Below, in pieces: positions 28,245-64,000 of a stretch of 64,000 nt of DNA. The position numbers were made by a program, and so were the translations under genes. The notes beneath the pieces are model-generated. The model saw only the letters and a program-made list of their open reading frames with translations, did not search any database and was not told where the DNA came from. Source of the DNA: Neocallimastix lanati (nom. inval.) (lineage: Eukaryota > Neocallimastigomycota > Neocallimastigomycetes > Neocallimastigales > Neocallimastigaceae); the NCBI GenBank assembly GCA_016946835.1, contig JACVTC010000086.1, positions 281,001 to 345,000 of the forward strand, in the 5' to 3' direction. How positions within the stretch are numbered: position 1 is the stretch's first letter; each line of letters starts with the position of its first letter.

Positions 28245-30097
28245 TTATTTTTTGCTTTTTTTTGTTTTACTTCTTGTTCCTTGAAATACACTTTCAGATT
28301 CATAGTTAGAACTACTTTCCCTTTTTCTTTTTTTAGTTTTATCTTCTCCCTCCATTTCATCTTCAGCTGATTTAAGTTCTGAAACATTAGCATATTCTTC
28401 TATTATACATGTATATTTTTTTTTATTCTTATCTAAACTTATTCTTACTAAAAGAATATTTTCTTTAAATTCTTTTTCTTCAATTTTAAACCAATATTTC
28501 TTTTCATGTATTTGGTTAATTACATTTTCGGCTGAGCCATTTGTTTTTAATTCTATAATAATAACAGGTTTTTTTCCTTCATTTTCTATTTTTGGATAAA
28601 AAATATAATCTAAGTTACCCTTTTCACTGTTTTCTTCTTCTTTAATATCATAATAATCTTTTGCATTAAAATAGGCGTAATCAATAACACGTTTTAAATT
28701 ACCATGATCCATTTTATGGTTTGGTTTTATTGTTTTCATATGTCTATATTCTAATATTTTACACATTCCTTTAACATCTTTTTTTATTGTCAGTTCTAAC
28801 ATTTTATTAGAATTATTAATTAAATCATATAAATAATTCAGGTTTTTTTTTTTTTTAAAATTTTTATAAATTCTTCCTGTAATTCTTTATTAGGAATGGA
28901 AATTTTACCATTACAATAAGTTAAAAATCCATATGTAACCATCTTTGAATAGAGTTGCTTTTTCTTGTTAATATTATCTTCATCATTATCTTTTTTTGTT
29001 TTTTCTTGTGAATCATTCGTTTCTGTATCTTTTAATAGATCTTCCACTCCATACTTTTCTAATTCTATAGATATATCATCCCCTTTAATTAAATCTAAAA
29101 TATCATTTTTTACACCATGAATTTTAAAGTCAATTGAATCTACCACTTCATTAAATCGTCCTGTCTGTATCCAATAATTTTCAATTCTATTATTTTGTAA
29201 GGCATGATACACTGACCATGAATTAAAAATTTTTTTACCATTGTAACCTTTATATCCATTATACCAATTTTCTATATTTTCATATTCTAAAGTTTCATTT
29301 TCATTATATTTTGTTTTATTAATTTCGCATAGTTTGATAACTTCTTGTTCAGTAAAACCAAAATACTGGTAATAATCTTTGTCATTTAACATAGAATATT
29401 CATTAAAACAATTTATTGTGGACTGAGTCATTTGTTTTGCTATTGGTAATATTCCTGTCATATATACAAAAGCTACATATACTTGATCTTTGATTAAATT
29501 TTTTAAAAAAGCAATATACTTCTTTTGCTCTTTGGGAGTAAACAAATTATTACTAATTATATAGTCCCATTCATCAATAATAATAATAAACTTTTCTTTA
29601 ATAGCTACAAAAACTTCTTGTAAATTTTTATAAATTTTTCTACTATATTTTTTTAATATATTAGAATTTGGATATAAATCTTTAATATCTTTCTTTAAAT
29701 CTTTATTAATTGATTTTAAATAACCCTTTAAGGTTTTGTAGGAATCAACATCATACGAGAAATCAAAATATATTGTGTGATATTTTTTTTGAAATTTATT
29801 ATATTGATCTATTTCTACTTTATTTTCATTTTTATCAGAGTTTATTACTTTAGAAACTTTTAATTCATCAAATATTTTTTTTGAATTTATACCTTTACTA
29901 TAATATGTAACTAACATTGCAGCTATTGAAGTTTTACCAAATCTTCTTGGTTTTGTAATGCATACATATTTAGACTCATCTTTTTCTATTAATTTGTTTA
30001 ATTTATTTATTAGTTTAGATTTATCTACAAAGTAATCCTGATTTCGGATTCCTAGATATTTATTAAACATTTTATCACTATCAATAATCCTTCCCAT
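28245..30097 (-). CDS. AAA-ATPase-like / PD-(D/E)XK nuclease-superfamily protein, split by a frameshift at a homopolymer
   Basis: Two adjacent frames form one protein. The first (30097-28838, 419 residues) is a bacterial-type AAA-ATPase-like domain: YFVDKSKLINKL, Walker A-like KPRRFGKTS at 49-57, Walker B IIIIDEWDYI at 171-180, then GFTEQEV and NWYNGYKGYNG. The second (in frame from about 28840 down to 28245) is a PD-(D/E)XK fold domain with GNLDYIFYP and VIIIELKT supplying the D...E-x-K residues, and a basic tail (KKRKRESS) that resembles a nuclear signal. The frames meet at a 14-nt A run (28843-28856). From there the second frame is open without a stop through NLNYLYDLINNSNKM to the first Met of the C-terminal half, so a one-base indel explains the split. 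This architecture is abundant in gut Bacteroidetes and Clostridia and expanded in gut fungi, which suggests bacterial transfer. Substrate and role are unknown. Confidence 0.82.
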
Positions 30098-32999: not shown

Positions 33000-33722
33000 T
33001 TTTAAATAATGCTCCTAGGAATTACATCATGGCTTATACTATCAATAAATGAGTAGGAAGTACGGAAACAGGTAGATATTTATTCTATTGTAATTATATT
33101 ATTATGTGAAAATGGTATTGAATATGCTATTATGATTCATTTTTCTGGACATTTACAGGAAACAGAACCAATGGTTATGGATACAAGAAGAGTTCTTGAA
33201 TCTGATTCTAAATAGTAATATTATTTATTGATGTTATGTAAATGCTAAATTAGATAAAAGATGAAGAAACTATATTAATTAATTTTTAATGGCTTAAGGG
33301 AACAAGGAGTTTATTGGATTGTTAAAGAATTTGGACATGGCTATTTATGGTAATGACGTTTCATATAAAACATTGACTAATTATTATTAACATAATAATG
33401 TTAGATAGATAGTTTTTGGATAGGGATAAGTAATGGAAGAATTGATAGTTATTTTTGATTTAACTTCTTAAGCAACATTCATTAAGAATGATTTAAATTC
33501 ATGGAGTAAAACTTATTAAAAAACAAAAAAGAATTAGTGATTTCATAATTATATATTATAACATAAATTTAAATAAACTTTTTTTTATTAATTTATTATG
33601 ATTATTATTATAATTTTTTATTTTTTATTTTATTTTACTTTATTTTATTTTATTATATTTTTATTTTTATTTTTATTTTTATTTTTATGTTATTTCAATT
33701 TAACTATTATTTTTTTTAATGG
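31861..33722. other. Intergenic region with an unidentified decayed segment
   Basis: 31861-32760 is AT-rich with an A-run at about 32441-32483 and a TAAT tract near 32595-32622. From 32766 to 33520 the composition is less extreme and short protein-like pieces appear on the + strand (GMHVQGNKILRGKW, IMIHFSGHLQETEPMVMDTR, KEFGHGYLW), separated by stops. They look like an old coding relic, possibly a transposase, but I cannot name a family. Confidence 0.4.
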
Positions 33723-34745
33723 TATTTTATTTTATTTTATTTTATTTTATTTTATTTTATTTTATTTTATTTTATTTTATTTTATTTTATTTTATTTTAT
33801 TTTATTTTATTTTATTTTATTTTATTTTATTTTATTTTATTTTATTTTATTTTATTTTATTTTATTTTATTTTATTTTATTTTATTTATTTTATTTTATT
33901 TTATTTTATTTTATTTTATTTTATTTTATTTTATTTTATTTTATTTTATTTTATTTTATTTTATTTTATTTTATTTTATTTTATTTTATTTTATTTTATT
34001 TTATTTTATTTTATTTTATTTTATTTTATTTTATTTTATTTTATTTTATTTTATTTTATTTTATTTTATTTTATTTTATTTTATTTTATTTTATTTTATT
34101 TTATTTTATTTTATTTTATTTTATTTTATTTTATTTTATTTTATTTTATTTTATTTTATTTTATTTTATTTTATTTTATTTTATTTTATTTATTTTATTT
34201 TATTTTATTTTATTTTATTTTATTTTATTTTATTTTATTTTATTTTATTTTATTTTATTTTATTTTATTTTATTTTATTTTATTTATTTTATTTTATTTT
34301 ATTTTATTTTATTTTATTTTATTTTATTTTATTTTATTTTATTTTATTTTATTTTATTTTATTTTATTTTATTTTATTTTATTTTATTTTATTTTATTTT
34401 ATTTTATTTTATTTTATTTTATTTTATTTTATTTTATTTTATTTTATTTTATTTTATTTTATTTTATTTTATTTTATTTTATTTTATTTTATTTTATTTT
34501 ATTTTATTTTATTTTATTTTATTTTATTTTATTTTATTTTATTTTATTTTATTTTATTTTATTTTATTTTATTTTATTTTATTTTATTTTATTTTATTTT
34601 ATTTTATTTTATTTTATTTTATTTTATTTTATTTTATTTTATTTTATTTTATTTTATTTTATTCAATCTGTGCTTTATATTCATATTCTACTATTTATTT
34701 TATTTTATTTTATTTTATTTTATTTTATTTTATTTTATTTTATTT
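33723..34745. repeat. Giant (TTTTA)n pentanucleotide array with one inverted core unit
   Basis: About 940 bp of TTTTA (on the order of 188 units) runs from 33723 to 34663, interrupted only by about three single-base contractions to TTTA (near 33885, 34190 and 34283). Positions 34664-34700 hold one inverted copy of the compound-minisatellite core (ATTCAATCTGTGCTTTATAT... TCTACTATT), followed by a further TTTTA run to 34745. Open frames across it encode only Phe/Tyr/Ile/Leu repeats and are not genes. Confidence 0.93.
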
Positions 34746-35689
34746 AATTTTTTTTTTTAAAAAAAAAGCAATGTAGACCAATTAGATTTCATATATTTAC
34801 TTTTATTTAACTTTTATTTTATTATACAATTTTATTATATATTAAACTTTAATAATTAATCCGTAAATAATTATTTATACAAGAATTAATTATTATTTAA
34901 ATTTTAAAAATTAAATATAAATTAATTTAATATGAAATACAATGATTTATGATTTATGATTTACCATTTATTATATTAATTATGAATTATTAACTATTAT
35001 TATTCATTTATTCAGTAGGAGGTAAATTGCTTAATATTTTAATTATTTATTGATTATAATTAATTATTTATTGCTTATTATTTATATTATTTATTGCTTA
35101 TTATTTTTATTATTTATTGCTTATTATTTTAATTATTTAATTATTTATTTAATTATTATTTTTTTTTTTTTGAACAGTTTTTTTTTTTTTTTTTTTATTT
35201 TTAATATTTAAATATTTAAATATTAATAATCTTATTGTTCCTTATTAATTTATTATTAATAAATAGATTTATTTTATTTTATTTATTCATTAAAGTATTT
35301 TTTAATTTAATAAATGAAGTAATTTACATGATCAGAAATAAATACTTTTATGAGTTTTCTTATGAATCAAAGTTTTTTTTTTAGGATTTCATTCATTTAA
35401 AAAAGGAAAATGATTGACATTACATACATAAATAATAATGAATATCTAAATTATATTTCATAATAAATAAATAAATAAATAATACACAGATAATAAATAA
35501 TAATAATAATAATAATAAAAATTAACATATGAAATATATTAGCAAATTAATTAATAAAAAAAAAATATAAGAATATAATAAAATTTTATTTTTTAATAAA
35601 TAAGGAAAAAAAAAAAAAAAAAAAAAAAAAGATATTTACATGGCTCAACATATTTGGGGAGTTTGATTTTATATTATTACTCATTTATC

Positions 35690-36125: not shown

Positions 36126-37826
36126 TATTATTTATTATTATATTATAATGTAAAAATAATTGTATTAATATATATATATATATATATATATGTATTTTTA
36201 TATTTTATTTCTTATATACTTATCTATTCTTAATAGACTGGTGTCAATGAATCTGGTGCAGAATTTGGAGAAGGAAAATACCCTGGGGTATATAATACCG
36301 ATTATATTTATCCAGATGTCAAAGCTATTCAAGCCTCTATTGATCAAGGTATGAATATTTTCCGTGTTGGTTTTTCATGGGAACGTATGCAAAGAACATT
36401 AAATTCAGCCTTTGATACTACAGAATTTAAGCGTTTGGATGAAGTGATTAGTTACATTACTAAAAATGGAGCAGTCGCTATTCTTAATCCACATAACTTC
36501 GCTAGATATAGAAATAGTGTTGTTGGTTCCAGTCAAGTTCCAAATTCCGCCTTTGCTGATTTCTGGAAAAGAATGGCTGATAAATATAAGAGTAATAATA
36601 AAGTTTGGTTTGGATTAGTGAATGAACCCCATGACATGCCAACCGAACAATGGTTCTCTGCTGCACGTGATGCTGTCGATGCTATTCGTAAAGCAGGAGC
36701 GAATAATAATGTATTAGTTCCCGGTAATTCCTACACAGGAGCATGGTGCTGGACGAAGACACATTATGGATCACCAAATTCAAAAGTAGCACTTGAATAT
36801 TTTAATGCTTCCGATAAAAATATTATTTATGAAGTTCATCAATATTTTGATAGTGATTATTCTGGTACGCATGAACAATGTGTACAACGTCCATGTAATA
36901 AACTTTTCACTGATTTTGTTGATTGGTTAAAAGAAAATAATTTGAAAGGTTTCGTTGGTGAACTTGGAGCAGCTATCAATAATGACTGTAAAGCCTGTGT
37001 AGAAGAAGCCTTAAACTATTTAGAAAAGAATTCTGACTATGTTGTTGGTTGGACTTGGTGGGCAGCTGGTCCATGGTGGGGTAATTATATGTATTCCATT
37101 GAACCAAAAGGTAATGCATTCCCAGAACAAATGACCTGGTTAAAACCTCATCTTGTTGGTAACTCTATCCACAGCACTGTTCCTACTTTTGATTTTTCAG
37201 ATATGGCACCAAATGGTTCTCCTTATTGTGAAGGTTGTGAAGCTACTGCTACTAGTGGTGATGGTACTTTATGGGGTTGGGAAAATGAACAATCCTGTGT
37301 AATCAATACTTCACAATGTCAAGGTGGCTCTAAACCTTCTAATGGCAATAATAACAATAATAATAGCAATAACAACAATAATAACAACAACAATAATAAT
37401 AACAGTAACAACAATAATAACAACAATAATAATAATAACAATAACAATAATAACAATAACAATAACAATAACAATAATAGTAATAGTAGTAATTCAGAAA
37501 TTGCACCAAATGGTTATCCATATTGCCAAGGATGTGATGTTACAGCTACTGGAGGTGATGGTTCTAAGTGGGGATGGGAAAATAATAAATCCTGTGTCAT
37601 TAAATCATCTAGATGTAGTTCAAATAATGCCAGCAACAACAGCAGTTACAACAACAATAATAATAATAATAATAACAATAACAGCAACAATAACAATAAC
37701 AATAGTAATAAATCCAATTGTGCTTCTCAATGGGCTCAATGTGGTGGTATCGGTTTTAACGGTCCAACCTGTTGTTCCTCTGGAAAATGTGTTAAACTCA
37801 ATGATTGGTATTCTCAATGTCAATAA
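35987..37826 (+). CDS. GH5 endoglucanase with two fungal dockerins and a C-terminal CBM1
   Basis: Two exons (35987-36055 and 36237-37826; 181-bp GTAAAT/AG intron, phase 0) encode 552 residues. Exon 1 is the signal peptide (MKYQSIVGLLATTIVSALA). The catalytic domain (about 24-335) starts TGVNESGAEFGEGKYPGVYN, which favours subfamily GH5_5. NEPHDMP holds the acid/base Glu near residue 153, GFVGELGAA the nucleophile Glu near 265, and GWTWWAAGPWWG lies close after. Two fungal dockerin (CBM10-type) modules follow near 345-384 and 444-484, both with the PYC.GC and WGWEN..SC signatures, separated by poly-Asn linkers. A CBM1 (CASQWAQCGGIGFNGPTC) ends the protein. It is a secreted, cellulosome-docked beta-1,4-glucanase. 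Carrying both dockerins and a CBM1 lets it bind scaffold and cellulose independently. Confidence 0.95.
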
Positions 37827-42794: not shown

Positions 42795-42797
<3 letters not shown>

Positions 42798-43784
42798 TCC
42801 GAAGTCTTAAAAACAAAAGATCAGCTAAATAGCTCTAATTTTAAGTTGTGGAAACAACAATTGTATTTATTATTAAGGAGATTTAATTTAACGGATTATC
42901 TTAATAGTGTCAAAATTGAAAAAGTGGATGGTTCCACTTTAAAGGAAGAAGAAAAACAAAATTTAATTCTAGTGGATGACACTATAAACACTTATTATAA
43001 AAAAGGAACAAAAAGTGAGGTCCTCAAAAATGATGCTAAGGTCAAGGAAATTATTTTAAATAGTATTAATGAAGAACTAGCATCCAGTATAGATTTCATA
43101 TCTGGTACAGCATATGAAATCTATAGGATGATAGTAAACCTAAATTTAAGTGATGAAAAGGATAGAATTGAGGAAATTAAAGATTCCCTTAATCACTCAA
43201 AATACGACCCAGAAAGTGATCCATCGTTGTCCATATTTATCTCTAATATGAATTTAAAGTTTAAGGAACTTGAAAATCTCGGAGAAAAACTAGAATTTAA
43301 GGAAAAATTTATTTATCTATTTAATGCTATGCCAGAAGAATTAACTATAAAAACAAATTTAATAGACCTACAAACGGACTGGGAAGATACTACCAAAAAG
43401 TTAATTGAAAGGGTACAGCTACTAAAAAGAGTAAAAGAAAAGAAAGAAAAATCGGAAAATATTGTTTCAAATCTTAATACGCCAAATGTTCAAAGTAATT
43501 ATACCAATAAAAACTATAGTAATAATAATAATAAATATAATAATAAAAATTATAAAAATAATATTGAATGTTGGAGTTGTGGTAAAAAAGGTCACTATCA
43601 AAGTGAATGTAATAATAGAAAGAATTTTAATAAAAATAATAATAACAATTATTATAAATATAATAAAAATAAATTTAATAATAATAGAAATAATAATAAA
43701 AATTATAATAATAATAAATATTACAAAAATGATAAAAACTATGATGGGAGGCGAAACGCGTTGCCTAAACAGCACAGTAAATGA
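42795..43784 (+). CDS. Copia gag (capsid/nucleocapsid)
   Basis: 329 residues starting MSEVLKTKDQLNSSNFKLWK, right after a 33-nt A run. The central region (SIFISNMNLKFKELENLGE) is typical of copia gag. An Asn-rich linker leads to one zinc knuckle, CWSCGKKGHYQSEC (C-x2-C-x4-H-x4-C), at about 43567-43608, which binds the genomic RNA. A basic Asn/Lys tail ends at the stop at 43782-43784. Gag forms the virus-like particle in the cytoplasm. It is intact, so only pol shows damage in this copy. Pol lies in the +1 frame and overlaps the tail. Confidence 0.9.
43746..43765 (+). promoter_or_regulatory. Candidate +1 ribosomal frameshift site between gag and pol
   Basis: In the gag frame the codons GGG AGG CGA (43746-43754) form a GC-rich island just before the gag stop, in an otherwise A/T-rich gene. 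The arrangement NNN-AGG-C resembles the Ty1 site CUU-AGG-C, where a slow AGG codon makes the preceding tRNA slip +1. Slipping from GGG to GGA enters the pol frame exactly. A short AACGCGTT palindrome follows. The site is inferred and untested. Confidence 0.5.
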
Positions 43785-46700
43785 AGTAAATAAACAAGAT
43801 AAACACAGAGAATACTTTTTCAAAGACTATAATGATGCGTATAATATTGAAACAGGTAATGCATCAAGAAGTATTCTCCCATTCAACAAACCATCTTATT
43901 TTAAAGAAAATAAAAATAAACAAAATAAAAAATTAAATGATAATAATAAAAATAAATTAACCAAAAATATTAGTACATGGACACTAGATTCTGGCACCAC
44001 ATACCATATGATATGTGATCCAAATCTATTATCAAATTATAAAAAACACAATCGGAGAATTTATTTCGCCAATGGTGAATACGTTAAGTGCAGAGGAATA
44101 GGTACTTACATAGGTTATATAAATGACAACAAAATTACTCTTAAAAATGTATTGTATGTTCCCTCATTCAAGAAAAATTTACTCTCAGTAGACTGTTTAT
44201 CCGAACAAGGATACAAAACTGTTTTTTGTAAAAGAAATAATAAAAATTGTGTAATATTATTTAATAGTAAAAATAATAGAATCTGTACAACATATTCAAA
44301 TTATTCCAGAACTTATATTATTTGGACTTCCAAGAATAAAATAAATTTTTATAATAATGATATCAATTGTAATAATGCCAATAGTGAAGAAGAGGAAAGT
44401 CTCTACGTATGGCATAGACGTTTGGGACATTATAATCTAGGAACACTTAGGAAAACATTAAAAAGAATATATATAAAATGTAAATGCAAGACGTGTGCGA
44501 AAACAAAATTAAAAAGTTTCCCACATTACCCCTCAGATAGTCGCGCTACTGAACCATTTGAATTGGTTCATATGGACACTGTTACTATTAATAGTAGGTC
44601 CATGTATGGAAATAAATACTTTGTTTCTATTTTAGATGATTACACTCGTTTTGGTTGGGTCTTATTTATCAAATCCAAACGTGATGTTTTTAACGCCTTT
44701 TTAAATTGGTATAATAACATTAAAAACATATTTAATAAAAATATTAAAAGATTACGGACTGACAATGGAACAGAGTTTACTAACAATAAAATTATAGAGT
44801 TTTGTAATATTAATGGAATTACACATGAGTTTTCTGTCCCTTACGAACCTCAACAAAATGGACGTATCGAAAGGTTACACGGTTCTCTCCTTCCAAATGC
44901 TAGAGCGATGTTAGAGGATGCCCGCCTTAATCATGTTCTCTGGGAGGATGCCATTAGGACAGCTAACTATATCCACAATAGGATGCCACATAGAGGTATT
45001 GATAATAATGTTCCGTATGAACTTCTTTATAATGAAAAAGTCGATTATTCAAGGTTTAGAGTCTTTGGTTGTCAAGTCTTTTTCCTTGTCCCTAAACAGT
45101 TTAGAAATAAATTAACTAACTCTTCCCTCCCAGGTATCTTTCTTGGATACGATACCAACCCAACTGCTTATAGGATTTTTGATATCACTAATAATAAAGT
45201 TGTTATTTCTCGTTCTGTTGTATTTTTTGAAGATATTCCTGGTAATGGTTCTGCTCCTCCTTCTCCTCCGGATTTAATAAATTTCACTCCTTATTATGAA
45301 ATCGGGGGAAGTAATGATGATGAAGACGTTGTAGACTTTGAGGACAATAACGTAAATGATAAAAGTATAAATGAAAATAATAACAATATGGAAAATAGTA
45401 CAAACAATAATGTAGATAATAATAATAATATGAACAACAACATAAATGATAATATAAATGGGTACACAAACTATTACTACAATAATTTAGATTATCCACC
45501 TCCTAATAATTTATATTATTATAATCCATATGCATTTGTAAATTATCCAAATAATTTCCAAAATCATTATGCTCCAAATCAATATAATTTAAATCCATAT
45601 AATAATTTAAATTATTGTATTCCTCCAAATTATTATAATTATACAGCACAAAACTTTCCCTCTCCTGTTTTAAATTCTCAGAATGGACATCCCATAAATT
45701 ACCAAAATCTAAACGTTTCTAATAATTCAAATATTAATCAAAATAATTTAAATCAATTAAATTCAAATGATGTAGACCATTTAAATCAAAATAATTTAAA
45801 CAATAATTCAAATCAAAATAATTCAGACAATAATGATCAATTTAACTCGAACAATTTAAATCAAGGTAATTTAAATAATTTAAATCAAGTTATTTCGAAC
45901 AACAATTTAAAACAAGGCAGTCCAAATGACAACTTAAATCAAGCAATTCAAAATGATAATGTTAACAAGAATAATAGAAACAACTTAAATGACCAAACTA
46001 ATTCAATTAATAATGTAAATAATATCAATAATGTAAACCAGTTAACTCAAAATAATTCGAAATATAATAATACTAGGGTAGAAGAAATAATCAGTAAAAT
46101 ACCAAGAATTACAGATAATGGAGATTATAATAAGCGTGATGGAAAATCAATTGATTTAAATAATTTAACGAATAGAAATAATAATTCAAGCTCAACATCT
46201 GGAAATTCTAATGCGGAAATTAACCAAAATATAAACAAACAAAACATAAATAAACCATATGCAAGTAAATCAAATGTAAGTACTTCGGATAATATGAATA
46301 AAGATAAAGAAAGTATTTTATCTAAAAGAAAACATGTTGAAGAAATGAATGAAGAAGAATTAAATGATAGGAATGAAAGTAATAATTATAAGAAAAGGAG
46401 AGCAAGTAATTATTATAATTTAGTTGCATTAAATTGTAGTGAAATGGAATTACCGTTACCAAACTCGTATAAAGATATATTTGATAGACCTGATAAAGAG
46501 GAATGGTTAAAGGCAATTGAAACTGAATTAAATAACATGAAGAATATGGAAGTGTACACACTTGTTAAAGAAATTCCAAAAGGAAAGAATATAATTTCAG
46601 CTAAGTGGGTATTTAGCTATAAGAGAAATGACGTAGGTATAATTATAAGATTTAAGGCGAGGTTAGTTGCTCGCGGTTTTACTCAAATTTATGGAATAGA

Positions 46701-47742
46701 CTATATAGAAACATTTTCACCTACTTTAAAGCAAGATTCGTTAAGAGTCATTATAGCAATTTCAATTTATTATGGTTTTGAAATTTATCAAATTGATATT
46801 AAAGCGGCATATTTAAATGCTGACTTAGAGGAAGAATTATATATGGAAATACCTGAAGGTAGTGAAGATTATGGTAAAGGCTATTGGAAGTTGAACAAAG
46901 CGATTTATGGCTTAAAACAAGCTGGTCGTATGTGGAATAATAAATTAGATAGTGTTCTTACTGAAATAGGTTTTGAAAGATTAAAGAGCGAACCATGTGT
47001 TTATATATTGAAAGATAAGAATAAGAATATTATTTGTATAATTGCTATTTATGTTGATGATATCCTAATTTCTGGAAAGAAAAGTGTTATAGATAGAATT
47101 AAATTAGAAATTAAAGACAAATTCAATTTAAGTGACTTAGGAATGGTTGATTTCATAATAGGAATCAAATTTATTAAATGCAAGGATGGTTATATTATGC
47201 ATCAAATACAATATTTAAATGATATCTTAGACAGATTTGACATTGATAAATACAATGCGATATCAAATATGATGTATACTGAAAATGAGAAATTAAGAGA
47301 AACAAAGTTTGATAAAACTACATATATGCAGGCTGTAGGATGCTTACTATATTTAGCTATGGGAACAAGACCAGATATTATGTATGCGACAAGTAAAGCT
47401 ACTAGAAAGAATCAAGATCCTACTCTCGAAGATTGGATGAATGTTATCAAGATTTTTAGATACTTAAAAGGTACAAAACATTATGGTTTAAAGATTACTA
47501 AAGACATTAATATAAGAGTATATGTAGACGCAGATCTAGGTGGTGATAGAGAGACAAAAAGATCAACTACTGGTTTCGTAATATTTATGGGTTCAGCTCC
47601 TGTGACATGGTATTCAAAGTTGCAACACTGCGTAGCTATATCTACCGCTGAAAGTGAATATTATAGTCTGAATGAATGTGCTTTGAAATGTATGTGGTTA
47701 AGAAATTTACTGAATGAATTAGGCATAAAATTGATTGTATAA
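43750..47742 (+). CDS. Copia pol polyprotein (protease, integrase, RT, RNase H), truncated at the C-terminus
   Basis: Expressed by +1 shift from gag. The protease motif LDSGTTYHM is at about 43983. The GAG-pre-integrase zinc motif (WHRRLGH..., CKCKTC) is at 44409-44500. The integrase triad residues lie in HMDT (44569), RTDNGTEF (about 44753) and QQNGRIER (44850). A 1-kb Asn-rich linker spans about 45300-46400. RT runs from KWVFSYK through ARLVARGF, DIKAAYLNA and the catalytic YVDD (47049). RNase H includes YVDADLGGD and STAESEYYSL. The frame stops at 47742. A one-base loss in the A run 47727-47730 would account for this, because the remaining RNase H coding, including its terminal Asp-containing region, continues in another frame to 47981. 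This copy may therefore be non-autonomous, unless the break is a sequencing error. Confidence 0.9.
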   Translation, partial: GETRCLNSTVNEVNKQDKHREYFFKDYNDAYNIETGNASRSILPFNKPSYFKENKNKQNKKLNDNNKNKLTKNISTWTLDSGTTYHMICDPNLLSNYKKHNRRIYFANGEYVKCRGIGTYIGYINDNKITLKNVLYVPSFKKNLLSVDCLSEQGYKTVFCKRNNKNCVILFNSKNNRICTTYSNYSRTYIIWTSKNKINFYNNDINCNNANSEEEESLYVWHRRLGHYNLGTLRKTLKRIYIKCKCKTCAKTKLKSFPHYPSDSRATEPFELVHMDTVTINSRSMYGNKYFVSILDDYTRFGWVLFIKSKRDVFNAFLNWYNNIKNIFNKNIKRLRTDNGTEFTNNKIIEFCNINGITHEFSVPYEPQQNGRIERLHGSLLPNARAMLEDARLNHVLWEDAIRTANYIHNRMPHRGIDNNVPYELLYNEKVDYSRFRVFGCQVFFLVPKQFRNKLTNSSLPGIFLGYDTNPTAYRIFDITNNKVVISRSVVFFEDIPGNGSAPPSPPDLINFTPYYEIGGSNDDEDVVDFEDNNVNDKSINENNNNMENSTNNNVDNNNNMNNNINDNINGYTNYYYNNLDYPPPNNLYYYNPYAFVNYPNNFQNHYAPNQYNLNPYNNLNYCIPPNYYNYTAQNFPSPVLNSQNGHPINYQNLNVSNNSNINQNNLNQLNSNDVDHLNQNNLNNNSNQNNSDNNDQFNSNNLNQGNLNNLNQVISNNNLKQGSPNDNLNQAIQNDNVNKNNRNNLNDQTNSINNVNNINNVNQLTQNNSKYNNTRVEEIISKIPRITDNGDYNKRDGKSIDLNNLTNRNNNSSSTSGNSNAEINQNINKQNINKPYASKSNVSTSDNMNKDKESILSKRKHVEEMNEEELNDRNESNNYKKRRASNYYNLVALNCSEMELPLPNSYKDIFDRPDKEEWLKAIETELNNMKNMEVYTLVKEIPKGKNIISAKWVFSYKRNDVGIIIRFKARLVARGFTQIYGIDYIETFSPTLKQDSLRVIIAISIYYGFEIYQIDIKAAYLNADLEEELYMEIPEGSEDYGKGYWKLNKAIYGLKQAGRMWNNKLDSVLTEIGFERLKSEPCVYILKDKNKNIICIIAIYVDDILISGKKSVIDRIKLEIKDKFNLSDLGMVDFIIGIKFIKCKDGYIMHQIQYLNDILDRFDIDKYNAISNMMYTENEKLRETKFDKTTYMQAVGCLLYLAMGTRPDIMYATSKATRKNQDPTLEDWMNVIKIFRYLKGTKHYGLKITKDINIRVYVDADLGGDRETKRSTTGFVIFMGSAPVTWYSKLQHCVAISTAESEYYSLNECALKCMWLRNLLNELGIKLIV

Positions 47743-52559: not shown

Positions 52560-55500
52560 ATGAAAACTTTAATAATATCAGCTTTGATTTTATTTTTAAT
52601 AAACATTTGTAATGGTCTTTTAGTATTACCATTCAATAATGTTCCAAAAACAATTGCTTCTGGTGATAAAATCGGTATACCAATTTCAAATGATAAATTT
52701 ATTATTTCAAATTGTGCAGCTTTAGGTAACTCTTATTTATATACAGAAAATAATGAAGTTACTGAATATACACCAGTAGCTTATTTTAGAGATGGAACCA
52801 CTTTAGAAGTAATTATCAAAAAAAAAAAAAATTAATACTTAATTTTTAAAAAATATAAATATATAATATATATAATAAATAAATATATAAAATAAATTAT
52901 ATAAAATATGCTATTTTATAAAATTATATAATAAATAAATATATTATATAAATTAAAAGATAAAGTTATAAAAATGTAAAATTTGATTATTAATTTTAAA
53001 TTTATTTTAATTTTGTCAAATATTTATATATATATATTTAAAATTTTAAAGCTATATATTCCAGATGTTGGTAAGAATAATTCAAAGAAATATTTTGTTG
53101 TTGTTGAATTACCATTAGCTGAAGCTATTATTAAGACTGATCCATTTACTATTACACCTGGTTCAAAAATTGATTTACCAAAAACTGATGGTTGTGGTAA
53201 AACAGTAAAATTCTCAAATAAGGAAGATAGTAAAGCTAATGAAAAAAGTAATGATAACAAGCCAATTGAAGCAAAAGATAATGATAAAATAAGTGGTAAC
53301 AATAATGGAAATAAATTAGGCATTAATGTCAACAAAGGTAGCAATGATAGTATTAAAAATAACAATAGTACTGACACTAATGGTAAGTCTACCATTTTAA
53401 ATGCAGAAAATTCTGCTAAAGATACGCCAGAAAATGAAGAAGGAGGTTCAAAGAATGTTGTTATTATTGCTGCAGGGTAAATAAAATATTTAATATAAAC
53501 ATAAATATATTTTGTTTTTTGATAAATAAAAATGAAAATATTAATATTAATATGTTTTATTTTTTAATAAATAAATATGAAAATATAAATATATTTATTA
53601 TATATATTATTTTATAATTAAAAAACAAAAAAAATTAAAAATAAAAATAATAATTATATAGTACGAGCGTTGTTGCTTTAGTTGTAATTAGTGGATTAGT
53701 CTTTATGAGAGGAAGATCATACATGAAAACAGGTGAAAGTGAAATTTCATACAGTTCCTTAAATTATGTTAGTCCAAAACCATACAATCCAGTCGGTGGT
53801 TTATACGATAATTTAACTAATAATAATAGTGATGATTTTGATCGTGATTATCAATTAAGATGTTTACAAAATGATAACCATTCTCAAGTTAGTTATCCAG
53901 TTTCTTTAAGTGATGGTTCCTGTGTTAATATGGATAAGAATACTGATATCTTTGAAGCCGCTGACGATATTCCTGTTCCTGAAATACCAAAGGATATCCC
54001 AAGAGATTTACCAATGAATCAACCAAATGATTTAGAAATTACCAAGCGTGTTGTTGAAGAAATTGTTATTAACCCAGAAAAAGTTATGAGTGAAACCGCT
54101 AATGCTGCTTCTGCTGTTGTCACTACTGCTTCAGTAGCTTTAGCAATTAATGAATGTGGTAATCTTACTATTGAAAACTCTACTATGGATAACCAAAGTT
54201 CTATCGAAAAGTCTAACACTACTACAAGCAGTAGTAGTAGTTGTTCATCTTGTAGCTCCTGCTCCTGCTCTTCTTGTAGCAGCTGTTCATGTTCATGCTC
54301 TTGTAACGAATCTTCAAGATACACAACTACCACAGATAATGAATCCTCCTTGAAGTTACTTTCATTAAGTTTAAATAACGCCAATCCATTTACTTCCGTT
54401 GATTTTAGTGACAATTCAGCTCTGGGAGATACTACTCGTGGATACTCTGTATTTGTTGATCAAAATAATAATAATAAGAAGGATTCTGTTGCTTTGACTA
54501 CCATCACTGAAAATACTGGAATTGATGATAGCCGCAGAGACACTCAATACACTGACTACAGCGTTGATAGCCGTAGAGATACTCAATTCACTGAAGCTAC
54601 CGGTATTGATGATAGCCGCAGAGACACTCAATACACCGACTATACTGTTGACAGTCGTAGAGATACACAATACACCGACTATACCGTTGACAGTCGTAGA
54701 GATACACAATACACTGACTACACTGTTGATAGTCGTAGAGATACACAATACACTGACTACACTGTTGATAGTCGTAGAGATACACAATACACTGACTACA
54801 CTGTTGATAGTCGTAGAGATACACAATACACTGATTACTCTGTTGATAGTCGTAGAGATACTCAATACACTGACTACACTGAGGATAGTCGTAGAAATAC
54901 TCAATACACTGATTACACTGAAGGAACTAGTTACACTACTGATCGTGACAGTCGTAGATATACTGATTATACCGAAGGATCAAGTTACACTAATCGTGAT
55001 TCACGTTATACTGAATACACCGAAGGATCTAGTTACTCATCATGTTCATGCTCTGACTCTGAATGTGATTGTAGTCGTAGAAATACTCAGTGTTCTAAAT
55101 ATACTTCTGGTGATTACACTTCTGAATATACTTCTGAATATACTTCTGGATTTACTTCTGGATATACTTCATACACTACTGATAGTAGAAGACAAACTAC
55201 TACTACTGATTTCAGTAGTAGTCAATACAGTAGTGACTTCTGTGAGGCCCATGATGCCACAGAAAGTGAATCATCTAGAATTTTACCATTATCTACTATT
55301 GAACCATTCGGTGGATCAGCTAATACTAGTAGTTTCTTAGATGCTTTACAATCAAAACAAAATGTTATTCGTGAAAGTATTTGTGGTTTATTACCAACCG
55401 GTCCAATTACTGGTAAACCACCAAAGTTTGATATTGAATTTGTAGCTCAAAATGATTTAGAAACAGAAAAACCAGGAGAATTGAAAATAAAGAAAATGGA

Positions 55501-55609
55501 TGTTATTCGCATTCTTGAAAACTTAGAAGGTGGTTATTATATGGCTAACAATAGTACTTCTGGTGATTCTGGTAAAATCCCAGCTTTCAAAATACTTTCA
55601 TTACTTTAA
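52560..55609 (+). CDS. Single-pass membrane protein with repeat-rich cytoplasmic tail and SH3-like C-terminus
   Basis: Three exons (52560-52808, 53052-53476 and 53662-55609) keep frame for 873 residues. A signal peptide (MKTLIISALILFLINICNG) precedes an ectodomain of about 195 residues with few Cys and an Asn/Ser/Lys-rich stalk. The transmembrane helix NVVIIAAGTSVVALVVISGL (about 218-240) is assembled across intron 2 and is followed by the basic stop-transfer MRGRSYMK. The tail has a Ser/Cys-only stretch (SSCSSCSCSSCSSCSCSC), then twelve copies of a 13-residue unit DSRRDTQYTDYTV, more TSEYTSG repeats, and a C-terminal domain PGELKIKKMDVIRILENLEG...YYMANN...GKIPAF. That last part fits the SH3 pattern (ELxxxxxDxIxV...G..P). 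The layout resembles fungal surface sensors of the Fus1 type with a cytosolic SH3, but no family was identified. Confidence 0.78.
54527..55029 (+). repeat. 39-bp coding tandem repeat (DSRRDTQYTDYTV)
   Basis: Twelve units in the membrane protein's tail. Units 3-7 are identical at protein level, and units at the edges have diverged (FTEATGI, DSRRNTQ, DSRRYTDYTE, DSRYTEYTE). Each unit has two Arg, two Tyr and several Thr, which offers regularly spaced phosphorylation candidates. Confidence 0.9.
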
Positions 55610-59836: not shown

Positions 59837-62800
59837 ATGTTTGGTAGTACTAATAACACTTTTGGTAGCACTAATAATAATAGATCTTTTGGTACTACGA
59901 GTATTTTTTCAAATGCAAATGAAAATGATACTAAAAGAAATAAAATTAAATTATTAATTAAAACCAGCAATAACATTTCAGACATTGAAAAATGTATTAA
60001 GGAAAATAATATTGATTTGAAAAAAATAAATATTATAAATAGTTTTGATATTTTGATTTATGCAATTGAAAATAATGCTACCCTTAATATCATTGAATAT
60101 ATAATTAATAAAACACCTTATGATAAAATAAATTACAGTATTATGGAAAATTCAAAAGTGAAAAAACCATTTATTTCAGCTCTTACAACAAATAATTTTC
60201 AGATTGCAAATTATTTACTCACTAAATTTAAAATTAATATAAATAAAGACTATAGTGATATTATTAATAGTCTTCATCAATATAAAGATTTAAATAATAG
60301 AAATTTAAACTATATTTTAGATAAGGGTTATCAATTATCCAATATTGATAAAGTTCTTATCATTAGTTTATTAAATTCTGAGAATGACTTTATAAAAATA
60401 ATTTTTAGGCATTATGCCTTTGATAATGCATTTATAATTGAGATGCTGAAATGCCGTTCAAAATACAATAAATCGTTATCCAAACAAGAATTAGAAGAAA
60501 AAGTAGAAAATGAAAAAAGAAAAATTATTATTTATGATGAATACTATCGACTAGCTATTGATAAAAAATTTTATAAACAAGCCATGTGCTTTTTCGAATT
60601 TGATAATAGCCCTAAAGACATTTTAATTGATCGTATTCTTAATTATGATCTTTTAGAAGTTGCAGTAAAAGCCAATAATATAAAATTATTGGAAAAAATT
60701 TTACAATATAAAGTTTTTTCTTTCAAAAATATTATTGATGAAGATTTATTTAAAGAAGCAAATAAAAATAATAATATGAAAATTTTAAAATTATTAGTAA
60801 AAACATCTTTAGATCTTACTCTTGAAGGTAATGATTGTGAAAAAGTCCCAAGTGAAAAAGTCGAATCCGTTATAGAGACTACTAATTTGTTAAATTCTAA
60901 TAGAACTTCATTTGGTGGTCAACCAGTGAATTTAACATTTTCACCTTTAAATTCAAATCGTTTTTTAAAATCACAAAAAAGAGGAGTAAATTCACCTGAA
61001 CGCTTACGAGACAGAGATTATGGCTTTAAAATAAATGATGATATAAAAATTTTTAATTTTAGCCTTCTAAACACCCCAAATTCTGAACAAATAAATAAAA
61101 CTAAATCTTCAGATGATAATAAGTCCAATAAGTCTAATGGTTTTATTAATAGCAGTAACAATAGCAATTGGTTTAATAATAATATTAAACCAACTGCTTG
61201 CTTCACTAAAAGCAATACTGAATCCACTAAAGAAAATAGTGATGTTGGTAGCATTCCTACTGATGAAAAAATAAAAAACTTAAAAGGATCATCTGTTTTT
61301 CATAATACCACATTAACTACTCCAACTACAACATCTACTAATAGTAAAAGCGTTTTTAGTAATGCTATTCCAAATACTGTACCCGCTAATAGTGGTTTTA
61401 GTTTTGGTAAACCCTCAACAACAAAAACAACGACAACAAAAACATCTACTAATAACATCAACGTTTTTGGTAATGCTACTCCAACTAATAGTAGTTTTGG
61501 TTTTGGTAAATCTTCTACAGCGACAACAACATCCACTAATAACACAAGCTTTTTCGGTTTTGCTACTCCAAACACCGTATCAGCTAATGGTGGTAGTTTT
61601 GGTTTTGGTAGCCCTTTTGCAACAAAAACAACATCTACTAATAACACAAACGTTTTTGGTAATGCTACTCCAACTAATAGTAGTTTTGGTTTTGGTAAAT
61701 CTTCTACAGCTACAACAACATCTACTAATAACACAAGCTTTTTCGGTTTTGCTACTCCAAACACTGTACCAGCTAGTGGTGGTTTTAGTTTTGGTAAACC
61801 TTCTACAACAACAACAACAACATCTACTAATAATACAAGCGCTTTCGTTAATGCTACTTCAAATACTGTACCAGCTAGTGGTGGTTTTAGTTTTGGTAAA
61901 CCTTCTACAACAACAACAACATCTACTAATAATACAAGCATTTTCGGTAATGCTACTTCAAATACTGTACCAGCTAGTGGTGGTTTTAGTTTTGGTAAAC
62001 CTTCTACAACAACAACAACATCTACTAATAATACAAGCATTTTCGGTAATGCTACTTCAAATACTGTACCAGCTAGTGGTGGTTTTAGTTTTGGTAAACC
62101 TTCTACAACAACAACAACATCTACTAATAATACAAGCATTTTCGGTAATGCTACTTCAAATACTGTACCAGCTAGTGGTGGTTTTAGTTTTGGTAAACCT
62201 TCTACAACAACATCATCCACTATTAAAGCTGGATTGTTCGGTAATACTTCATATACTCGATATACTAATAACAAGGTTAAAGATGAAGAAATTGAAGAAA
62301 TGGATGAAGATGAGAAAATGAGTGAAGATGAAGAAAAGGTTGAAGATGAAGAAAAGGTTGAAGATGAAGAAAAGGTTGAAGATAAAGAAAAGGTTGAAGA
62401 TGAAGAAAATGTTGAAAATGAAGAAAAAATTAAAGATGAAGAAAAAATTGAAGATGAAGAAAAAGTTAAAGATGAAGAAAAGATTGAAAATGAAGAAAAA
62501 GTTAAAGATGAAGAAAAGATTGAAAATGAAGAAAAAGTTAAAGATGAAGAAAAGATTGAAAATGAAGAAAAGGTTGAAGATGAAGAAAAGGTTGAAGATG
62601 AAGAAAAGGTTGAAGATGAAGAAAAGGTTGAAGATGAAGAAAAGGTTGAAGATGAAGAAAAGGTTGAAGATGAAGAAAAGGTTGAAGATGAAGAAAAGGT
62701 TGAAGATGAAGAAAAGGTTGAAAATGAAGAAAAGGTTGAAAATGAAGAAAAGGTTGAAGATGAAGAAAAGGTTGAAGATGAAGAAAAGGTTGAAGATGAA

Positions 62801-64000
62801 GAAAAGGTTGAAAATGAAGAAAAGGTTAAAGATGAAGAAAAGGTTGAAGATGAAGAAAAGGTTGAAAATGAAGAAAAGGTCGAAAATGAAGAAAAGGTTA
62901 AAGATGAAGAAAAGGTTGAAGATAAAGGAAAAGTTGTTATTTTAAAATATGATATTCATTACATTAATTTAATATTAAACATAGCCATAAAATTTGGTAA
63001 TTTTGATTTAGTGAAATATTTAGTTGAAGATGAAAAATTTCAACCAAGTAATATTAATATGAATGATATTAATAAGGTATATCCATTAATTACCGCTATT
63101 CAATTTGGTGAATCCAAAATTTTCAGCTATTTATTAGATCATAGAACTTCCTCTTATAGTAATATTAGTGATGGAAACGGAAATAATCTATTATCTATTG
63201 CTATAGATAAAGATCAATGTGATATCGTACGATGCCTATTAAATCATAATATAAATATTAATAGAAGGGATGCAAATAATTGCTATCCTTTAAATAAGGC
63301 TATCTTAAAAAATCGTTCGAATATTGTAAAAGCCATGGTGAGATATGGTCTTCAAAAACATATTGATTTAAACATTCTAGATATTAATGGTAATCCACCC
63401 CTTATTATTGCCTATCGTCAGGGCCATCTTGAACTCTTTAAATTCCTTGCAAAATATCTAGATATCAATAAGAAGGATACCAACGGTAACTCAGTTCTTT
63501 TCTATACTGTATATAATGATGATTTTTCAAATATGAAATATCTTATTCGTTTAGGTGCTGATATGAATGGTAGAAATAAGGTCAGTCGTTCTCTTGTCGA
63601 TATTCTTCTTATGAAAAAAAATAAAGATATGCTTCTCTATCTTCTTCAAAAGAATTACAAAATTTCTGTAAATGCTAAGAATATTAAGGGTGAAACTATA
63701 CTCATTACTCTTATTAAGAGTACGGTATACAATGAACAGGATAAATTGGATATCCTTCCCATTTTAATTGAAAAGGGATCTGATGTTAATCAAGAGAATA
63801 GTGGTAGTGGAAACTTCACCCCATTATATTATGCCATTCAGATCAAATCCCTTCCTCTTGTCAAATTATTAGTTCAAAATGGTGCTAATGTCAACTACTT
63901 CCTTCATTCCAAGAATCAATCGCTACTTATGTATGCCATTGAAATTGGAGATCTTACCATTATCGACTATTTAATTGATTGTAATGCAATTGTTAAACAT
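59837..64000 (+). CDS. Ankyrin-repeat protein with FG-nucleoporin-like block and Glu/Lys repeat (partial, 3' end beyond window)
   Basis: One uninterrupted frame of 1388 codons runs to the window edge. It opens MFGSTNNTFGSTNNNRSFGT. Residues ~35-340 form degenerate ankyrin-like helix pairs (FDILIYAIENN, FISALTTNNFQIANYLL). Residues ~485-805 hold about nine FxFG motifs (GFSFGKPS, SFGFGKSS) with many FG and one GLFG in Thr/Ser/Asn-rich spacers; the last four units are 33 residues long. Residues ~812-1030 repeat EDEEKV about 33 times. Residues ~1031-1388 are clear ankyrin repeats (NLLSIAIDKDQCDIVRCLLN, TPLYYAIQIKSLPLVKLLVQ). FG repeats bind nuclear transport receptors in known nucleoporins and ankyrins bind proteins, so a nuclear-pore or transport role is possible, but no known nucleoporin has this full layout that I can name. 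No stop codon or intron was seen. Confidence 0.85.
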   Translation, partial: MFGSTNNTFGSTNNNRSFGTTSIFSNANENDTKRNKIKLLIKTSNNISDIEKCIKENNIDLKKINIINSFDILIYAIENNATLNIIEYIINKTPYDKINYSIMENSKVKKPFISALTTNNFQIANYLLTKFKININKDYSDIINSLHQYKDLNNRNLNYILDKGYQLSNIDKVLIISLLNSENDFIKIIFRHYAFDNAFIIEMLKCRSKYNKSLSKQELEEKVENEKRKIIIYDEYYRLAIDKKFYKQAMCFFEFDNSPKDILIDRILNYDLLEVAVKANNIKLLEKILQYKVFSFKNIIDEDLFKEANKNNNMKILKLLVKTSLDLTLEGNDCEKVPSEKVESVIETTNLLNSNRTSFGGQPVNLTFSPLNSNRFLKSQKRGVNSPERLRDRDYGFKINDDIKIFNFSLLNTPNSEQINKTKSSDDNKSNKSNGFINSSNNSNWFNNNIKPTACFTKSNTESTKENSDVGSIPTDEKIKNLKGSSVFHNTTLTTPTTTSTNSKSVFSNAIPNTVPANSGFSFGKPSTTKTTTTKTSTNNINVFGNATPTNSSFGFGKSSTATTTSTNNTSFFGFATPNTVSANGGSFGFGSPFATKTTSTNNTNVFGNATPTNSSFGFGKSSTATTTSTNNTSFFGFATPNTVPASGGFSFGKPSTTTTTTSTNNTSAFVNATSNTVPASGGFSFGKPSTTTTTSTNNTSIFGNATSNTVPASGGFSFGKPSTTTTTSTNNTSIFGNATSNTVPASGGFSFGKPSTTTTTSTNNTSIFGNATSNTVPASGGFSFGKPSTTTSSTIKAGLFGNTSYTRYTNNKVKDEEIEEMDEDEKMSEDEEKVEDEEKVEDEEKVEDKEKVEDEENVENEEKIKDEEKIEDEEKVKDEEKIENEEKVKDEEKIENEEKVKDEEKIENEEKVEDEEKVEDEEKVEDEEKVEDEEKVEDEEKVEDEEKVEDEEKVEDEEKVENEEKVENEEKVEDEEKVEDEEKVEDEEKVENEEKVKDEEKVEDEEKVENEEKVENEEKVKDEEKVEDKGKVVILKYDIHYINLILNIAIKFGNFDLVKYLVEDEKFQPSNINMNDINKVYPLITAIQFGESKIFSYLLDHRTSSYSNISDGNGNNLLSIAIDKDQCDIVRCLLNHNININRRDANNCYPLNKAILKNRSNIVKAMVRYGLQKHIDLNILDINGNPPLIIAYRQGHLELFKFLAKYLDINKKDTNGNSVLFYTVYNDDFSNMKYLIRLGADMNGRNKVSRSLVDILLMKKNKDMLLYLLQKNYKISVNAKNIKGETILITLIKSTVYNEQDKLDILPILIEKGSDVNQENSGSGNFTPLYYAIQIKSLPLVKLLVQNGANVNYFLHSKNQSLLMYAIEIGDLTIIDYLIDCNAIVKH
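61310..62250 (+). repeat. FG/FxFG coding tandem repeats
   Basis: Thr/Ser-rich units carrying FxFG. The last four are exactly 99 bp apart (the CCAGCTAGTGGTGG word at 61871, 61970, 62069 and 62168). An older higher-order unit of about 180 bp (NVFGNATPTNSSFGFG...) appears twice at about 61469 and 61648. Confidence 0.9.
62322..62932 (+). repeat. 18-bp coding repeat (EDEEKV)n
   Basis: About 33 units of GAAGATGAAGAAAAGGTT. The variants are mostly GAT/AAT and GAA/AAA changes that give ENEEKV or KDEEK. The predicted product is a long charged single alpha-helix or disordered spacer. Other frames (KMKKRL) are open only because of the repeat. Confidence 0.92.

Follow-up and report, generated by a model that had tools for sequence, protein, structure and literature searches.

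An ankyrin-family gene of the gut fungus Neocallimastix lanati with a candidate nucleoporin-type FxFG linker

Introduction

The composition of the nuclear pore is known in detail in few lineages, and phenylalanine-glycine (FG) repeats also occur in AGFG1/hRIP, which is not known to be a pore component and in which the repeats are joined to a non-nucleoporin Arf-GAP domain, with no ankyrin repeats known. Yeast Nup60, Nup1, Nup2 and Nsp1 have FxF or FxFG domains that are named as such (PMC12717009), NTF2 and importin-beta dock on FxFG motifs (PMC10636164), and Tetrahymena has FG nucleoporins with new architectures, such as TtPom82, that represent lineage-specific domain combinations (PMC5450191). 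For ankyrin repeats, a Ran-GDP code is on record (Lu et al. 2014, cited in PMC10636164). An expansion of ankyrin proteins in the Neocallimastigomycota has been published, the available text calling studies of the repeat role in fungi missing (PMC8778642), and the accessible passages on gut-fungal nuclear pore subunits mention these without ankyrin (PMC5168858). Here we analysed a 64,000-nucleotide stretch of the genome of Neocallimastix lanati (the window; C748:281001-345000 of a 199-Mb, 762-contig assembly), which contains P0001, a gene that joins FG motifs to ankyrin repeats. The titles and abstract openings of the literature matches listed, a coverage outside which most subscription journals fall, contained no ankyrin-FG protein.

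We propose, at a probability of roughly 45%, that P0001 is a member of an ankyrin family with a nucleoporin-type FxFG linker, which would bind transport receptors or the pore barrier through its FxFG motifs and a partner through its ankyrin repeats. As in yeast Nup60, Nup1, Nup2 and Nsp1, its FxFG or FxF motifs lie in a disordered stretch rich in S, T and N; unlike those proteins, which have other anchor parts, its folded parts are ankyrin solenoids, as far as can be told from the sequence alone. AGFG1/hRIP resembles it in combining FG repeats with a non-nucleoporin domain and differs in the identity of that domain. The genome's own Nup98-like gene, on contig C223, may share with P0001 a start of the MFGST type (by eye), and its start gives the best local alignment to the first 30 residues of P0001; unlike the Nup98 family, P0001 has one GLFG only and no autopeptidase domain in its visible residues. 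In TtPom82 and TtPom121 of Tetrahymena, too, a single lineage has joined FG repeats to further domains, but these proteins have transmembrane anchors and an observed pore location (PMC5450191), whereas P0001 has ankyrin blocks and is known as a sequence. The described ankyrin families of Neocallimastigomycota, like the paralogues of P0001, form a large Ank_2 family with low-complexity regions in some members; the accessible text on them names no FG or FxF domain (PMC8778642, PMC11878562), whereas P0001 and its sister gene L011 each have one.

Gene architecture

The reading frame of P0001 starts with an ATG at 59837 on the + strand and stays open over 1388 codons up to 64000, the window end; the gene is known up to this point, its 3' end lying beyond the window. 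Judging from L018, L019 and L021, the three of twelve two-block paralogue frames whose stop codon falls within the locus, some 70-130 further residues of ankyrin and tail would be expected. Its parts follow each other in the order FG-bearing tip, ankyrin block, linker, FxFG block, acidic EDEEKV array and second ankyrin block (Table 1). An earlier note on this DNA had described one frame with ankyrin repeats on both sides of an FxFG block and an EDEEKV spacer, and the 1388 open codons bear this out, the spacer comprising 219 residues with 33 hexamers in register.

The insert between the two ankyrin blocks remains in frame over 710 codons, and the GC content of its three parts is 28-35%, versus 12% in the 1 kb upstream (7-30% per 2-kb block of the window). 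Among the splice donors GTAAGT, GTATGT, GTACGT and GTGAGT, none was found within the insert, where only three GTAAAT occur. An intron that excises the FG block is therefore considered unlikely, given the absence of these donors, the 710-codon frame, the higher GC content and the paralogue linkers that are coded at the same place. A match to DUF5401 (27.0 bits, cut-off 25), extending over residues 660-1030, was discarded as low complexity.

The FxFG block

The Pfam model Nucleoporin_FG (PF13634; cut-off 32.2 bits) scored 43.7 bits on the FG segment and 33.7 bits on the whole of P0001, which thus has a region over the PF13634 cut-off, the mark of FG repeats in FG nucleoporins. Residues 506-811 contain 20 FG, 11 FxF and 9 FxFG motifs, versus 3.7, 3.45 and 0.38 in shuffles; in the less repetitive residues 506-650 the corresponding counts are 11 versus 2.1, 6 versus 2.35 and 4 versus 0.25, the last being reached by 0.0002 of shuffles. 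The FxFG motifs start 29-34 residues apart, and the block is rich in T, S and N and carries few charged residues (13 positive, 0 negative).

At the DNA level, the block consists of 9.1 tandem copies of a 99-bp unit. In the nine units compared, the FxFG glycine and three F positions are constant (9/9), with a TTT/TTC exchange at the first F, and the residue varies in 22 of 33 columns; these units are not independent, because they form a tandem array whose last four units are near-identical. The earlier note had claimed that the phenylalanines and the FxFG spacing are kept across diverged units, that the N-terminus also begins with FG motifs, and that chance low complexity is an inadequate account. 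All three points agree with our counts, the first with the reservation that the units are not independent; the tip has three FG motifs in its first 19 residues, and the excess of FxFG over shuffles indicates that the block is not random. The interpretation in the earlier note is thus borne out in part: the hybrid architecture and the non-random block stand, and its pore-associated scaffold and cytoplasmic condensate former are candidate functions. The non-tandem FxF tail of the sister paralogue, described below, further supports selection on the F motifs.

The sister gene and its FxF tail

L011, with L060 (C566:971316-968803, - strand), was the best match to the N-terminal ankyrin block (N block) of P0001. 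It is a complete gene of 838 codons, consisting of an ankyrin block, a 538-residue N/S-rich tail and a stop, with no counterpart of the C-terminal ankyrin block (C block). The tail contains 14 FxF motifs versus 2.22 in shuffles (0 of 5000 reached 14) and 3 FxFG versus 0.04, in contexts such as KPFTFGSFSF, RPFTFSS, IFSFGS and FLFGT. The tail DNA has short arrays only (period <=15, with <=3.4 copies above period 3), and these FxF motifs are therefore not tandem copies.

L011 was placed as the sister of P0001 in the N-block tree of 21 rows (support 96/95) and in the trees of 27 rows (96.3/98 in IQ-TREE and 0.988 in FastTree), the three runs sharing overlapping rows. The 28 other paralogue loci have 0-2 FxF and 0-1 FG each in disordered-like stretches; such stretches are present in 17 of them, with 5 FxF in 1986 residues versus 14 in 548 for L011, and absent from the remaining 11. 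F-x-F thus marks the sister pair rather than one accidental microsatellite. The simplest history would be that the ancestor of P0001 and L011 gained F-x-F and that both genes kept the motifs while the surroundings diverged beyond recognition; alternatively, F-x-F may have been gained independently on two neighbouring branches. L011 supports selection on the F motifs and is the strongest new evidence here.

Ankyrin blocks and the paralogue family

Tandem helix-turn-helix repeats of ~33 residues that match Ank models define ankyrin-repeat proteins, and P0001 belongs among these. The Pfam Ank_2 model matched the whole of P0001 at an E-value of 1.2e-42 and the C block with 142.4 bits (cut-off 27.3). 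The N block alone scored 21.7 bits, under the same cut-off; all 14 rows of its family alignment matched Ank_2 at E<=0.01, the best at 1.6e-12, and it aligns along its length with 13 paralogues at 36-46% identity. The assignment of ankyrin repeats to both ends of the frame in the earlier note thus held directly for the C block, failed for the N block taken by itself, and was recovered there through the family. The C block is modelled as helix pairs (best predicted local distance difference test (pLDDT) score 75.4, second 72.3, the other three of five models 30-35), and the best model matched ankyrin structures with E-values of 1e-9 or better. For the N block, folding by itself reached a pLDDT of 56 with no structure matches at E<=0.001, and this model was not used.

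Both blocks are widespread in the genome, with at least 109 matches for the N block and at least 179 for the C block at E<=0.001, P0001 included. Among the 29 N-block loci translated besides P0001 (L036 and L037 being one gene on two contigs), 12 have both blocks in one frame (L012-L023; BLASTP) with 15-98 residues between the aligned stretches, as compared with 710 in P0001; in the other 17, including L011, the blocks are farther apart, the C-block matches are partial or scattered, or there is no such match. P0001 accordingly belongs to an expanded ankyrin family of this gut-fungal genome, with homologous N and C blocks in paralogues. The linker at residues 327-505 begins where the 12 loci have only those 15-98 residues ahead of the C block, and the paralogue linkers are in several cases poly-S, S/P-rich or S/T-rich and in others short and plain. 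The FG and acidic stretches thus occupy a linker whose length and make-up differ naturally between paralogues, which makes P0001 a modified family member rather than an isolated oddity.

Searches that are weak for low-complexity sequence found, in the own genome, only P0001 itself with the linker and FG segment (E<=0.001, 25 candidates scored) and only L011 itself with the L011 tail (E<=0.01, 13 scored). A recent capture of a nucleoporin FG domain was rejected, as no source gene was found in the genome-wide searches with the FG segment or the L011 tail. Outside the genome, the N block gave 168 pattern hits in viral contigs and 20 hits in prokaryote genome contigs, none confirmed in either case, and the FG segment gave no match in phages; these scans say little about fungi, because the collections are viral and prokaryotic.

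The variable linker also bears on the main rival to an FG-adaptor function, a neutral low-complexity expansion in which a free linker would have been enlarged by slippage of the 99-bp and 18-bp units, the FG motifs being by-products. The two tandem arrays in the P0001 insert and the unrelated low-complexity linkers that several paralogues have at the same place are what such a process would leave, and gut fungi are described as leading in the number of low-complexity regions per genome, a share of which lies in Ank_2 proteins (PMC11878562). The F positions are nevertheless invariant, with a synonymous change at one of them, P0001 has a separate FG-bearing N-terminal tip, and the FxF motifs of L011 are non-tandem. 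We therefore regard neutral expansion as rather unlikely.

Nucleoporin-type matches elsewhere in the genome

All six frames of the 199-Mb genome were searched with PF13634; 20 candidates were scored, and 11 matches at eight places resulted. Six places were over the cut-off, namely C334, C738, C223, its duplicate contig C510, C522 and P0001, with P0001 (33.2 bits) and C522 passing only when neighbouring matches were added. C223 encodes a Nup98-like protein with the Nup98 autopeptidase S59 domain (PF04096, Nucleoporin2; 152.7 bits), which Pfam did not detect in the 1388 visible residues of P0001; besides P0001 and C223/C510, the three remaining places have FG exons (C334, C738 and C522).

For comparison, a background set of 50 disordered-like stretches (5115 residues) was taken from six frames of the remaining window and the loci, leaving out 16 loci (P0001, L011 and the nucleoporin loci). 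It contained 7 FxF versus 8.3 expected, so that F-x-F elsewhere in the genome stays at chance, and 35 FG. Together with the NPFGQ repeats of two proteins on contig C43, this count means that FG by itself is no reliable marker in this genome. Of the C43 pair, L047, the one scanned, has a Cthe_2159 carbohydrate-binding domain and is a non-nuclear source of FG-like runs.

Such runs leave some room for a different docking role. As in AGFG1, F-x-F would then be a short linear motif recognised by a partner outside the nucleus, such as a trafficking adaptor. Both FG and F-x-F are short, and neither is restricted to the pore, as the C43 proteins illustrate for FG-like runs; the F-S-F-G/F-T-F-G flavour of the block and its Nucleoporin_FG score, on the contrary, indicate motifs of the pore type, and we consider this role very unlikely.

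The N-terminal tip

The Nup98-like protein of C223 begins MFGSTSFSFGNTSNTFGNSNNNKSMFG, and P0001 begins MFGSTNNTFGSTNNNRSFG. The first 30 residues of P0001 align best to this start (score 79, P0001 residue 2 opposite C223 residue 9), versus a best score of 68 for the rest of the Nup98-like FG region. The score of 79 was reached by 0 of 5000 simple shuffles but by 44 of 5000 shuffles that preserve FG. The likeness between the tip and the beginning of this Nup98-like protein is at most suggestive.

Proposed function

In the proposed scenario, the inter-block linker of an ankyrin-family member would have turned into a nucleoporin-type FxFG domain. Its FxFG motifs could bind pockets of nuclear transport receptors, whether of the importin-beta type, of NTF2 or of Mex67, and/or enter the FG barrier of the pore, and one or both ankyrin solenoids could hold a client or docking partner. 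P0001 would then be a peripheral, possibly mobile FG adaptor, comparable to the asymmetric FxF/FxFG nucleoporins Nup60, Nup1 and Nup2 of yeast. The acidic hexamer array may serve as an extended polyanionic spacer between the weakly positive FG block and the second solenoid, or may tune receptor contacts; like-charge regions of FG nucleoporins have been proposed to shape FG coverage (PMC4676729).

The same charge pattern would suit a cytoplasmic or nuclear condensate scaffold with no link to the pore, in which the FG block gives cohesion and the ankyrin blocks recruit clients. The block is T/S/N-rich, has no negative charge and adjoins the strongly acidic array; moreover, FG domains are capable of forming condensates or gels, and human Nup153, an FxFG nucleoporin (PMC10636164), is counted among the cohesive ones (PMC12717009). 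In the latter source, however, three yeast FG domains, those of Nsp1, Nup159 and Nup60, are evenly spread without foci (PMC12717009), and the P0001 block is of the FxFG type with a single GLFG, a motif type nearer to Nsp1, which makes a condensate scaffold distinctly unlikely.

Several observations weigh against the FG-adaptor function itself. The FG array consists of tandemly repeated, partly homogenised DNA, seven more columns without F or the FxFG G are also invariant across the nine units, and two of the nine lack the G that follows the first F. The linker at residues 327-505 is not enriched (FG 1 versus 0.45 and FxF 1 versus 0.49 in shuffles), which makes a broad FG character less likely. 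The L011 tail has only 3 FG despite its 14 FxF, no similarity between the FG regions of P0001 and L011 was found in genome searches with each, and a Pfam scan that covered 818 of its 838 residues at E<=0.1 gave L011 no Nucleoporin_FG match. In the 1388 visible residues of P0001, Pfam detected none of the known nucleoporin anchor domains. L047 and L049 (C43:37317-48467), two very similar and apparently secreted proteins, have NPFGQNNN repeats that stay under the PF13634 cut-off. At the DNA level, the best alignment of the tip region falls in AT-rich upstream sequence, so that the likeness to Nup98 is absent there. The wealth of low-complexity regions in Neocallimastigomycota also belongs here. 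Finally, deletion of yeast FxFG domains leaves pore function intact (PMC12717009), and because they are dispensable, an extra FxFG domain need not be important.

With these points taken into account, a branch of this large and uncharacterised family of ankyrin proteins may have been taken into the service of nuclear transport. It is doubtful, though conceivable, that gut fungi evolved FG-ankyrin proteins as lineage-specific nucleoporins or soluble FG carriers, in which the solenoid would take cargo or Ran and the FxFG arm would enter the pore, so that a single chain would serve as both cargo adaptor and barrier component. A pore association, if true, would illustrate how a repeat scaffold can acquire a grafted FG domain and would offer a natural test of the minimal features for entry into the FG barrier; a fungal ankyrin family whose role is described as unstudied in the available text (PMC8778642) would receive, for one of its branches, its first clue to function.

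Feature coordinates and neighbouring genes

Table 1. Parts of P0001, with positions in the window
Feature	Position	Strand	Basis
P0001 open reading frame, 1388 codons, cut by window end	59837..64000	+	open-frame reading
N-terminal tip, residues 1-30, three FG motifs	59837..59926	+	motif count, alignment to Nup98-like start
N-terminal ankyrin block, residues 31-326	59927..60814	+	Pfam Ank_2, paralogue alignment
N/S-rich linker, residues 327-505	60815..61351	+	paralogue comparison, motif shuffles
FxFG/FG block, residues 506-811, 99-bp tandem units	61352..62269	+	Pfam Nucleoporin_FG, motif shuffles, repeat-unit alignment
EDEEKV hexamer array, residues 812-1030, net charge -84	62270..62926	+	repeat analysis, composition
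C-terminal ankyrin block, residues 1037-1388, runs past window end	62945..64000	+	Pfam Ank_2, structure model

Other parts of the window contain further repeat-bearing frames. Positions 33598-34776 (+) have long ILFYF-repeat frames derived from a short T-rich DNA repeat, which are most likely not genes, and positions 53705-55609 (+) hold a 634-residue frame with many RRDTQYTDYT-type repeats and, towards its C-terminus, a weak match to SH3 (20.2 bits, cut-off 22.9). Two overlapping frames at 42795-47742 (+), with a long insert rich in N, resemble by eye the gag and pol genes of Ty1/copia retrotransposons. A predicted AAA-ATPase of a class that is usual in bacteria (PF09820, 74.2 bits) lies at 28838-30097 (-). 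The gene at 36351-37826 (+) encodes a GH5 cellulase with CBM_10 and CBM_1 domains linked by poly-N spacers; it looks like a gut-fungal cellulosome gene, with a CBM_10 that we take to be dockerin-like.

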